DNA of 64,000 nt, from positions 124,001 to 188,000 of the forward strand of contig NZ_NSKC01000004.1 of NCBI RefSeq assembly GCF_002286985.1. Reading direction: 5' to 3'. Positions within the stretch are counted from its first letter, which is position 1, and the number at the start of each line of letters is the position of its first letter. Positions 28,666 to 49,671 of the stretch are shown in pieces. The position numbers were made by a program, and so were the translations under genes. This DNA comes from Halorubrum salipaludis (GTDB lineage Archaea > Halobacteriota > Halobacteria > Halobacteriales > Haloferacaceae). The notes beneath the pieces are model-generated. The model did no database searches, had not been told where the DNA came from, and worked only from the letters and a program-made list of their open reading frames with translations.

Positions 28666-29532
28666 TTACTCCGTGAGTGTGAGCGAGCCGAGAGTCACGA
28701 ACAGAGCCTCCTCCGTCCGGACGACCTCGCTCGCTTGTGCCGGGATCGTGTTCAGCCAGAGGTCGAACCCCGGATCGGGTTCGACCGAGCGGCCGTCGGC
28801 GACGGCCGCCCGAATGCCGTCGGGCGAAAGCCCGAGCATCTCCGGAAGCCCTCGCTCGGGCGAGCCGAAGGCGACGGTGTACCCGCCGGCCTCCCGCGCG
28901 TCCGAGACGATGTCACCGAGCCGCGAGACGGAGAGTTCCTCCCCGTGTCGCGACGTCGCGACGGCCAAGCCGTCGCCGGCGAGCGCTTCCGACAGGTCCG
29001 CTTCCACGACCTGGAAACCGTCCTCCGGCTTCCCGGTGATGCGGGCGCGGACCGGTTCTCTCGAAGAGACCCTGATGGTGACGCGCTCCCCCTGCTCGAC
29101 CTCCATTCCGGAGGGAACGAGCAGGGAGATCGGGTGTTCCCGCAGCGGGGAATTGACCCGGACGCGGCCTTCAGGTCCGACCTCGGTCACGAGTCCCTGT
29201 GTTTTCGACTCTTCCCCGCTAGGGGTCGAGCCGGTCCGCCACGGCACGCGGAGCGGCGGGAGCACGCCGGCGTACCGGAGCTCGTCGCGCTCCCCCCAGA
29301 GGTCCTTGCGGAGCCCCGGAGGGGTCGCGGCGTACCCCAGCACGGTCCGAACGTACTCGCCGCCCCGTCGCCGCTCGCCTTCCCTGTCGGGGAAGACGAC
29401 CAGTCGATCCGCCCGGAACACCGCCGCCGCACGGGCGACGTAGCCGAGTTTGCGAGTCGCCTCGCGATCGTCCTCGGCCTCCCGGACGACCGAAGACGGA
29501 ACGCAGATCGTGAGTCCGTCTTCGGTACGCAT
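28666..29532 (-). CDS. SPOUT-family RNA methyltransferase (COG2106 type)
   Basis: 288 residues. The N-terminal segment (RKLGYVARAAAVFRADRLVV) and the C-terminal knot region (YTVAFGSPERGLPEMLGLSP, LNTIPAQASEVVRTEEALFV) match the archaeal SPOUT methyltransferases with an inserted OB-like domain (about 110-180). Relatives methylate rRNA uridines. The gene heads the ribosomal superoperon. A TATA-like CTTTTAG (about 29570-29577, minus strand) suggests a short leader of about 15 nt and is probably the main promoter for the following ribosomal genes. Confidence 0.82.
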   Translation of the reverse strand: MRTEDGLTICVPSSVVREAEDDREATRKLGYVARAAAVFRADRLVVFPDREGERRRGGEYVRTVLGYAATPPGLRKDLWGERDELRYAGVLPPLRVPWRTGSTPSGEESKTQGLVTEVGPEGRVRVNSPLREHPISLLVPSGMEVEQGERVTIRVSSREPVRARITGKPEDGFQVVEADLSEALAGDGLAVATSRHGEELSVSRLGDIVSDAREAGGYTVAFGSPERGLPEMLGLSPDGIRAAVADGRSVEPDPGFDLWLNTIPAQASEVVRTEEALFVTLGSLTLTE

Positions 29533-31135: not shown

Positions 31136-31206
31136 GCACCGGTAGTGTAGTGGTATCACGCAACCTTGCCATGGTTGCAACCCGAGTTCAAATCTCGGCC
31201 GGTGCA
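31136..31206 (+). tRNA. tRNA-Gly (anticodon GCC)
   Basis: A 71-nt cloverleaf. Acceptor GCACCGG (31136-31142) pairs with CCGGTGC (31199-31205), and the discriminator is A. The anticodon stem CAACC/GGTTG encloses TTGCCAT with anticodon GCC (31168-31170). The T arm is CCGAG/CTCGG with TTCAAAT. CCA is not encoded and there is no intron. Confidence 0.96.
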
Positions 31207-31230
31207 TTTTGCGAACGAAGTGAGCAAAAT
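31206..31230 (+). terminator. Hairpin directly at the tRNA-Gly 3' end
   Basis: ATTTTGC (31206-31212) pairs perfectly with GCAAAAT (31224-31230) around the 11-nt loop GAACGAAGTGA. It starts at the discriminator base and could mark transcription end or a processing site. Confidence 0.5.
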
Positions 31231-31252
31231 CACCGAGAGGGATTTGAACTCA

Positions 31253-31395
31253 GAAAGACGCAGCCCGCGCAGCGAACGAAGTGAGCGAGCGGGACCGTCT
31301 TTCCCTGGTTCAAATCTCGGCCGGTGCACTCCCTACGGTCGCGCACCGCCCTGACTCCCCGCTCGCTGCGCTCGCCGGGAGTCTCGACCGGTGCA
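31253..31395 (+). repeat. tRNA-Gly 3'-end copies separated by hairpins
   Basis: The last 21 nt of the tRNA (31186-31206) are repeated exactly at 31308-31328. A 14-nt near copy with one mismatch is at 31382-31395 and continues into TTTTG as the original does. Before each copy is a hairpin: GAAAGACG/CGTCTTTC (31253-31260, 31296-31303) and GACTCCC/GGGAGTC (31353-31359, 31377-31383). These look like scars of integration or slippage at a tRNA 3' end, but the units are only 60-120 bp. Confidence 0.65.
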
Positions 31396-31486
31396 TTTTG
31401 TCTCTTGATCGATGGCGGGAGTGAGTATCGCAGATTGGCGGCAGCGAAACAGTATTTAAGCGAGCTGTGAGCGGCAGCGACGATTC

Positions 31487-31740
31487 CTTATAAACGGCTG
31501 TTGCGGTGGCGCGTGCCTCCGAGCGCCCGAAGGGCGCGAGGAGCACGCGCGAGGGAGTCGGCGGCGACCGACGGGAGCCGCCGACGAGGCTGGGGAGGCG
31601 TGAGGCTGCGGTCTGCCGTCGGGTGGGACTCAAAGGGGCAGCCGTTCTCGGCGAACCCCAGCGACGCAAGGACCGCAGGGAGCGTAGCGACCGAGGACCG
31701 CAGCGAGCTGTGGGAGCCGAGAACGGCTGGAGCTTTGCGG
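31487..31740 (+). ncRNA. Putative structured non-coding RNA gene with own TATA box
   Basis: CTTATAAAC (31487-31495) predicts a transcript starting near 31512. Three strong hairpins follow: 31509-31550 (GCGCGTG/CACGCGC outside, GCGCCC-GAA-GGGCGC inside), 31557-31585 (GTCGGCGGC/GCCGCCGAC) and 31639-31729 (14 bp, CAGCCGTTCTCGGC with GCCGAGAACGGCTG) with further pairing inside. The ORFs here are arginine-rich translations without a convincing start or domain, so I read this as RNA rather than protein. I have an uncertain memory of similar segments in other haloarchaeal genomes. A mobile miniature element is the main alternative. Confidence 0.5.
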
Positions 31741-31952
31741 ATCTTCACCACAGGCACGCTGATCGCTTATAAACAGCCGCCAGCAACACCACAAGACTAC
31801 TTATAAACAACCGATCAGTCAATTTGCTATACCCACTCCCGCAGTCACTTAGGAAGTGGCGTTAGCGAACGGCGGTTACAACCGGACCCACGGGCCGAAC
31901 GTTGAGATTCCGGTAAAGCCACGCACTCAGAAACCGCCATCTGGGGCGTCCC
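31741..31952. other. Intergenic region with two further TATA-like repeats
   Basis: CTTATAAAC recurs at 31766-31774 and 31800-31808, each followed by an A/G/C-rich stretch similar to that after 31487. No coding frame with a plausible start is visible. The region ends at the stop of the minus-strand gene at 31953. Confidence 0.45.
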
Positions 31953-49236: not shown

Positions 49237-49310
49237 GGGCTCGTGGTCTAGCTGGTTATGACGCGGCCTTTACAAGGCTGAGATCGGCGGTTCGAACCCG
49301 CCCGAGCCCA
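49237..49310 (+). tRNA. tRNA-Val (anticodon TAC)
   Basis: A 74-nt cloverleaf. Acceptor GGGCTCG (49237-49243) pairs with CGAGCCC (49303-49309), discriminator A. The anticodon loop TTTACAA has TAC at 49271-49273, flanked by CGGCC/GGCTG with one G-U pair. The T arm has TTCGAAC. CCA is not encoded and there is no intron. Confidence 0.96.
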
Positions 49311-49671
49311 CTTCCTGCGGCGAGCAATCCGCGAGCCGCAGGTGTGGCGGGCGCGGTTCGAACTACGCGAGACGAGCGAAGCGAGTCTCGCCATCGAGTT
49401 CGAACCCGCCCGAGCCCACTGTCGCTGTCGCGAGCAACCCGCGAGCGGCAGCGACATACCTGTTTGAGGGCGGATTCGAACCAGGGAACGGAGCGAGCGA
49501 AGTGAATGAGTTCGAACTCTCCGTGATCTCAGTCATACTCCACCCGGGGTTGAGCCACAGAGTGATTGAATATATACTACTCGAATACCAGCTCAGCGTT
49601 CTCTGATACGCGTTGATTGCATATGAGAGCGATAGATTCATCCATAATCCGACCGATGTGCGCTCGGATGC
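49311..49671. repeat. tRNA-Val 3'-end copy with covarying hairpins, then AT-rich leader of the Fic gene
   Basis: The last 21 nt of the tRNA (49290-49310) recur exactly at 49398-49418. Hairpins: 49314-49342 (CCTGCGG/CCGCAGG), 49367-49391 (GCGAGAC/GTCTCGC, loop GAGCGAAGCGA) and 49420-49456 (TGTCGCTG/CAGCGACA). The first and third share the core CGAGCAAYCCGCGAG though their stems differ. The remainder (to 49671) is AT-rich with no gene seen. The layout suggests a remnant att site of an integrated element. Confidence 0.6.

Follow-up and report, generated by a model that had tools for sequence, protein, structure and literature searches.

Hairpin units ending in copies of the resident tRNA 3' end form arrays behind haloarchaeal tRNA genes

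Introduction

The closest described systems are the SMR-A elements of Haloquadratum walsbyi (HqIRS42, HqIRS43 and HqIRS55), which the available part of their description presents as non-coding units of about 110 bp with inverted repeats, preferring other palindromes as targets and mobilised in a manner called enigmatic (PMC3119063). The units described here, which end in copies of the 3' end (the tail) of a resident tRNA and which we call tRNA-tail units, are likewise haloarchaeal, non-coding, of about 110 bp and equipped with inverted repeats. However, SMR-A target IS605-type transposons and PATEs, whereas the tRNA-tail units stand behind tRNA genes or tRNA 3' parts in 79 of 79 loci; the available part of the SMR-A account describes neither resident-specific arms nor tail copies (PMC3119063). 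Partial tRNAs adjoining full copies are reported from Haloferax gibbonsii LR2-5, where the accessible part of the account describes no hairpins, inverted copies or family (PMC7921747). Casposons and CRISPR resemble the units in forming arrays of repeats with inserts and perhaps in tRNA 3'-end insertion with a short target duplication, tails of about 22 nt (type A) and 13 nt (type B) suiting a duplication and a later copying alike; as far as the available part of the source goes, they have a 14-15-bp duplication, an element-encoded enzyme and diverse inserts (PMC6614799), whereas the tRNA-tail units have shared cores and inverted resident arms. We found no description of such units in the open-access literature; an earlier account in subscription papers is possible. 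Imperfect single-strand hairpins in modular arrays or mosaics, like those of the tRNA-tail units, are also a feature of integron attC sites, REP/BIME and mitochondrial double-hairpin elements, none of which, to our knowledge, has arms that match each host gene. We file the tRNA-tail units as a new form within the small palindromic repeats, a known class.

The starting point is a ladder of tRNA-Gly 3'-end copies in Halorubrum salipaludis, lying in the window, i.e. the whole stretch of 64,000 nt (64 kb) that was analysed. The original prediction had offered two readings of this ladder, repeated scars of integrase att sites or a distinct small repeat family using tRNA ends. We find that the ladder is very probably an array of two small non-coding DNA units belonging to a haloarchaea-wide family, and we put the probability that these units are a DNA-level, spreading repeat at about 0.6.

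The ladder behind tRNA-Gly(GCC)

The resident tRNA-Gly(GCC) gene occupies positions 31136-31206 on the forward strand (ARAGORN; Rfam RF00005, 65.4 bits), and the tail that is copied behind it is its 3' end at 31186-31206, GTTCAAATCTCGGCCGGTGCA. The ladder runs in the order tail, hairpin, inverted tail, hairpin, tail, after which the whole series is passed through once more. The first unit, of type A, starts with a spacer hairpin at 31207-31229 (forward strand; recognised from sequence and fold) whose core GA-AC-GAA-GT-GA lies at 31213-31223, with a GNA loop on the sense strand and the exact motif GANCGNAGNGAG at 31213-31224. It is followed at 31231-31249 by a copy of part of the tRNA 3' end in inverted orientation (reverse strand), which was found by repeat search and by tracking the T-arm in 125 units and which contains the T-arm complement GATTTGAAC at 31241-31249. 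The core hairpin GAAAGACG ... CGTCTTTC spans 31250-31307 (forward strand; fold and covariance model R1) and contains an inner GNA hairpin at 31274-31285; the R1 match to this unit covers 31235-31324 (E 4.5e-14). An exact 21-nt copy of the tRNA 3' end on the forward strand, 31308-31328, closes the type A unit as the second tail. The second unit, of type B, consists of a spacer at 31329-31342 on the reverse strand, with an antisense GNA motif at 31329-31340 (exact motif search), and a forward-strand body at 31343-31382 (model R2 and pair counts) made up of the acceptor complement GCACCGC (31343-31349) and the stem GACTCCC/GGGAGTC, with an inner antisense GNA motif at 31362-31373. Model R2 matches it at 31338-31395 (E 9.1e-10). 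The third tail, CTCGACCGGTGCA, at 31383-31395 on the forward strand (repeat search), has one mismatch to the tRNA 3' end and is followed by TTTTG, as is tRNA-Gly(GCC) itself.

Most of what had been noticed from the letters stands. The exact 21-nt copy is borne out by repeat search and shuffles: TTCAAATCTCGGCCGGTGCA with up to three mismatches occurs at two sites only in the 64-kb window, against a maximum of 0 in 100 shuffles. The mismatched third copy running into TTTTG is likewise real and 13 nt long, and the stretch around it, TCTCGACCGGTGCATTTTG at 31382-31400, is identical to 31193-31211 in 18 of 19 positions. All three named stems were found, namely TTTTGC/GCAAAA (given as ATTTTGC) around 31213-31223, GAAAGACG/CGTCTTTC at 31253-31260/31296-31303 and GACTCCC/GGGAGTC at 31353-31359/31377-31383. 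The two loops said to be based on GCGAACGAAGTGAGC are present (31211-31225 and 31272-31286), but this pair by itself is within chance, as 9 of 100 shuffles reach two matches at up to two mismatches. The inverted copy at 31231-31249, the inverted acceptor stretch at 31343-31349, a second array and a dispersed repeat past the third copy had not been noticed.

The second array lies behind tRNA-Val(TAC) (49237-49311, forward strand, by ARAGORN; 49237-49310 by Rfam). A type A-like unit on the same strand, 49312-49419, closes with 22 nt that repeat the tRNA 3' end exactly (49398-49419), and a degenerate further unit reaches from there to about 49520. Within the window the exact motif GANCGNAGNGAG occurs 8 times, compared to a shuffled mean of 1.98, and none of 100 shuffles reaches 8, the 8 forming two clusters and hence not being independent. 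Each of them has a tRNA gene upstream at a distance of no more than 490 nt, while the same frame with other loops is found window-wide. Two of the 8 (31671 and 31696) are inside the dispersed repeat behind the Gly array. This non-coding repeat of about 445 nt (31405-31850) begins directly past the third tail, has imperfect terminal inverted repeats at 31415-31437/31820-31842 (TTGATCGAT..GCGGGAGTGAGT..) and has 63 matching pieces in the H. salipaludis genome; a tRNA gene precedes some of its other copies as well, such as the one at C23:294286-294722 behind tRNA-Ser(TGA). Searching the window with Rfam gave only two tRNAs and one L4 leader at gathering score, and no family for the array. The leader, annotated L4-Archaeoglobi ribosomal protein leader, lies at 29072-29174 on the reverse strand of this haloarchaeal window (74.5 bits; gathering score 34.5).

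Tail copies across tRNA genes

Tail copies are frequent downstream of tRNA genes in the host genome. An exact copy of at least 13 nt from a gene's own last 24 nt is present within 600 nt downstream of 19 of 46 H. salipaludis tRNA genes, and for 12 of these 19 the copy is at least 20 nt long; the remaining 27 have none. The upstream control gave 1 of 46, and downstream copies of control regions of the tRNA were found for 1 of 46 (first 24 nt) and 3 of 46 (nt 27-50); a tandem tRNA-Asp pair explains the upstream match and part of the control-region matches. For comparison we used two groups of 30 tRNA loci, each the best-scoring loci of four genomes. Among those from four other families of the order, 12 of 30 had a downstream copy of at least 12 nt and 0 of 30 an upstream one; among those from other orders, the numbers were 1 of 30 downstream and 0 of 30 upstream. 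The sole positive of the latter group (L255, from another order of the phylum) is a tRNA-Ala(CGC) whose 3' end recurs 115 nt downstream as an exact copy of 24 nt. In the units inspected, the copies stop at the discriminator base or adjacent to it and have no CCA, so that retroposition of mature tRNA is not favoured.

Arms, hairpins and strand of the two unit types

The fetched loci contain 205 units, 141 of type A (with a T-loop in the tail; 125 distinct) and 64 of type B, after 14 of 219 units that held tRNA sequence had been dropped. As the 191 tRNA genes were fetched largely because of their modules, a share such as 123 of 191 is not a rate. Type A units are 62-193 nt long, mostly 100-165 nt, and are built from a spacer hairpin, an inverted resident T-arm, a core and a direct copy of about positions 52-73 of the tRNA; type B units have a hairpin, an inverted acceptor, a stem and a direct copy. 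The tail is about 22 nt long in type A and about 13 nt in type B.

Both arms of type A follow the resident tRNA. In the 125 distinct units the 22-nt 3' arm fits the resident better than every other tRNA of the set in 94 cases, equally well in 31 and worse in none, and it is exact in 93. For the inverted arm, the resident T-arm is a better fit than other T-arms in 79 units, an equal one in 33 and a worse one in 13; the arm is exact in 29 and has one mismatch in 64, whereas shuffled bodies show 3-6 mismatches. An inverted acceptor does not exceed the control in type A (125 distinct units); the acceptor pairs of type B covary. The full T-stem is missing in 102 of 125 type A copies and complete in 23, compared to 1 of 125 resident tRNAs in which it is missing, and a role of the copies as tRNA mimics is therefore not favoured.

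That both arms match the resident, and that near-identical tandem units occur within one array (L146 and L195), would also be expected if template switching or slippage together with gene conversion made the tails in place, with no spread between tRNA genes. The same core, however, stands behind many tRNA species in several families, and spacer types are shared and reshuffled between loci, which speaks against such a purely local origin; we regard it as improbable.

The hairpins of both types close with a GNA loop that has tandem GA on either side; these loops are sense in type A and mostly antisense in type B. For the exact motif, the 141 type A units have 85 sense and 0 antisense occurrences (missing in 56), and the 64 type B units have it antisense in 44 and sense in 7, one unit having both (missing in 14). 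With a looser frame, 125 sense loops were counted in A and 73 antisense loops in B, against 3 and 10, respectively, on the opposite strand; all four nucleotides are used at the N of these loops. In a comparison of the two strands for folding, G-T and A-C pairs number 17 to 10 in A and 6 to 9 in B, without a clear lead for either strand. DNA mini-hairpins with GNA loops and at least two G-C pairs are extraordinarily stable according to the available part of PMC4686876.

Structure is conserved by paired changes in both types. In the type A hairpin (alignment A1, 38 of 53 extracted modules, the longer-core and some other rows being left out), 25 pairs are paired in 95.6% of cells across the 38 sequences, and 10 pairs have changed on both sides, compared to a shuffled mean of 4.4 and 1-4 in slid controls. 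The constancy of the A1 core is partly by construction, as most rows stem from the exact core pattern. In type B (alignment A2, 20 hand-picked and trimmed units), pairing holds in 94.1% of cells, and 14 of the 17 pairs differ on both sides, against a shuffled mean of 6.5 and 1-5 in slid controls. For both types the tested structures were themselves derived from the aligned sequences. Kinship alone could beat the shuffles without any structure, but the slid controls argue against kinship as the cause here.

Distribution in haloarchaea

Among 84,980 species genomes the exact type A core gave 42 matches on 41 contigs, titled Halorubrum, Halobellus, Halosimplex or Halovenus, with Halorubrum making up most of the named records. 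Of these matches, 39 lie 42-431 nt behind a tRNA gene on the same strand and have a 3' arm that is exact over 13-25 nt. Thus one core is common to many tRNA species, each time with the arms of the resident tRNA, where the ARAGORN names are uncurated (e.g. L130, called Ala, has a Gly tail). The other three matches, all with tRNA-like arms, stand behind a 3' part of tRNA-Gly(TCC) (L120) or some 110 nt from where the stored locus stops (L113, L139).

In H. salipaludis, model R1 (type A) has 14 matches, 14 of 14 behind tRNA genes, including two (L166, L167) that are type B units matched on the other strand; all 7 own matches of model R2 (type B) are also behind tRNA genes. Within the phylum R1 matches 51 of 294 genomes, i.e. 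51 of 53 of the host order and 0 of 241 others, and R2 matches 37 of 53 and 0 of 241, the 53 being counted among the genomes listed by the two scans, where most match-free genomes do not appear. With up to 15 (R1) or 19 (R2) candidates scored per genome, the per-genome counts are lower bounds, and weak matches were lost to the stricter filters of the phylum scans. Type A was not found in G149 and G044, both of the host order, in the R1 scan.

We then examined 43 R1 loci (14 own and 29 from 29 other genomes). A called tRNA precedes the array in 41 of them, with the model on the sense strand in 38 and antisense in 3 (L166, L167, L173); of the other two, L184 follows an apparent intron-containing tRNA missed by ARAGORN, and L170 a 3' part of tRNA-Gly(TCC) of about 48 nt. 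For 36 R2 loci the tRNA is upstream in sense in 34; it is likewise upstream at L288, allowing for an off-centre match at the contig start, and L268 has the same displaced tRNA-Gly as L170. All 79 R1 and R2 loci are therefore accounted for by a tRNA gene or tRNA 3' part. The tRNA-Gly(TCC) part at L170 and L120 was probably displaced by an integrated element. In both loci it begins near the anticodon, a pattern suggestive of integrated elements that crossed over in the anticodon region.

The 3' ends of tRNA genes are usual att sites of integrases. Tails that are direct repeats of a tRNA 3' end look like att scars, and partial copies of tRNA-Gly(TCC) in front of arrays hint that real integration does take place at such tRNAs. 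Nevertheless, of the 15 PF00589 integrase matches in the H. salipaludis genome none is in the window, the nearest on the contig being about 75 kb from the array, and conserved, covarying hairpins join the copies. The tRNA part before the arrays at L170 and L120 begins near the anticodon and not at the T-arm, and resident-specific arms at such a range of tRNA species would not be expected from one integrase. The first of the two predicted readings, repeated att scars, is not supported, and we regard it as very improbable; the second, a distinct small repeat family using tRNA ends, finds support, and the family extends well beyond the tRNA-Gly(GCC) locus.

Insertion at tRNA 3' ends by a Cas1-like enzyme (casposase), with the tail as target-site duplication and array growth as in CRISPR, is another reading. 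The A. boonei enzyme inserts at the tRNA-Pro 3' end with duplications of 14-15 bp, according to the available part of PMC6614799, and type B tails of about 13 nt are similar; but type A tails measure about 22 nt, and the inserts share cores and themselves contain an inverted arm specific to the resident tRNA. We consider this very unlikely.

Searching viral contigs with the exact type A core and phage records with the window unit gave no match, which likewise speaks against integrase scars, and a viral scan with the protein of a neighbouring ORF gave no relative. A plasmid origin was discarded, the single match being on a 987-kb Natrinema plasmid, behind a tRNA-like sequence that ARAGORN does not call.

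Gain and loss between relatives

The number and order of units vary at the same tRNA among relatives, so the identical ladder in all relatives that simple ancestral slippage would predict is not what is seen. At tRNA-Gly(GCC), 25 of 30 parsed loci from genomes of the same genus have 1-3 units and 5 have none, where one of the five (L055) contains Ns and one further locus (L053) was left out of the parsed set. Array types include A-B (our locus and others), A only, B only, B-A-B, B-A, and a longer A-type unit followed by B. A similar flank, GTTCCTMA, stands behind B (L063), A-B (L041), longer A-type then B (L066) and B-A-B (L054). No unit stands behind the second tRNA-Gly(GCC) of H. salipaludis, where the downstream sequence is similar to the one that follows the A-B array of L047. 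Behind tRNA-Val(TAC), 25 of 30 loci have 1-3 counted copies, one of them with an interval of 379 nt (L315), and 5 have none by copy count, some of these with degenerate units. Between relatives, units are thus present, absent or reordered as whole blocks from tail to tail.

Two kinds of irregularity were seen within these arrays. In L042, L045, L049 and L051 the last tail is followed by half a type A unit (spacer hairpin and inverted T-arm) and then by different sequence containing boxes similar to TTTATAAA as well as CCTCCAAAGCCCCAGCCG, which gives the impression that a longer repeat has inserted into the core. In L045, L049, L050, L062, L065 and L066 a double hairpin of about 50 nt, GTCGCCGGCGC..GCGCCGGCTGC..GAGGGACC..GGTCCCTC, lies in the loop of the type B hairpin; judging by its sequence, it is apparently a nested small insertion.

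When the 14 A-B loci at tRNA-Gly(GCC) are compared, the likeness of the arrays exceeds that of the downstream flanks in 91 of 91 pairs (mean 0.71 vs 0.36), the 91 pairs from 14 loci not being independent. This likeness bears on the main rival to a DNA-level repeat, namely that the units are transcribed as tRNA trailer and act in folding, 3' processing, termination or regulation, so that selection on the RNA keeps the hairpins. Arrays more alike than their flanks, their sense position behind the tRNA, the covarying structures and the T-runs after several copies all agree with an RNA role. It is harder to reconcile with the absence of units behind 27 of 46 own tRNA genes and some orthologues, with GNA loops on the antisense strand in type B, with most type A copies being no tRNA or RNase Z mimic (102 of 125 without a full T-stem), or with the lack of an Rfam family at gathering score for the units. 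On balance an RNA role seems unlikely to us.

Taken together, the downstream bias of tail copies, the shared cores with resident arms, the covariation, the polarity of the GNA loops, the variation by whole units and the greater likeness of arrays than of flanks speak for a DNA-level, spreading repeat. Array likeness and the constant sense position would fit an RNA function too, and against a DNA-level repeat we count the 13 of 125 inverted arms that fit another T-arm better, the 3 of 41 antisense R1 loci, the 27 of 46 copy-free own tRNA genes and the two genomes of the order without type A. Type A occurs in 51 of the order's 53 genomes, which makes a rare element less likely than a common host function.

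A possible mode of spread and its meaning

How such a repeat could spread may be pictured as follows, as one tentative scheme which we would not hold to be the probable one. The units would act as DNA: a single-stranded hairpin from one locus would use its short arm, T-arm or acceptor, to pair with a different tRNA gene, which is conceivable because the T-arm is nearly identical in most tRNAs. Extended on the new tRNA gene, the paired hairpin would take on the tail of the new resident and would then be fixed behind it, and the tRNA gene would keep working since the unit stands behind an intact tRNA. Recombination between tail copies of 13-22 nt would duplicate or delete units. Repeat-mediated deletions are described in Haloquadratum (available part of PMC3119063) and fit this proposed step of unit loss. 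In its widest form, the scheme would have very stable single-stranded hairpin cassettes spread between tRNA genes, take the resident 3' end as their terminus and build integron- or CRISPR-like arrays without an integrase of a known kind; that this is a categorically new, haloarchaea-wide system is rather doubtful.

As many related genomes have different arrays at the same tRNA, gain and loss of the units can be studied directly. A small repeat that is given new ends by every target gene would be unlike the repeats compared here. The units bear on the origin of partial tRNAs and on att-site calling near archaeal tRNA genes, and they may represent a natural use of GNA-loop DNA hairpins.
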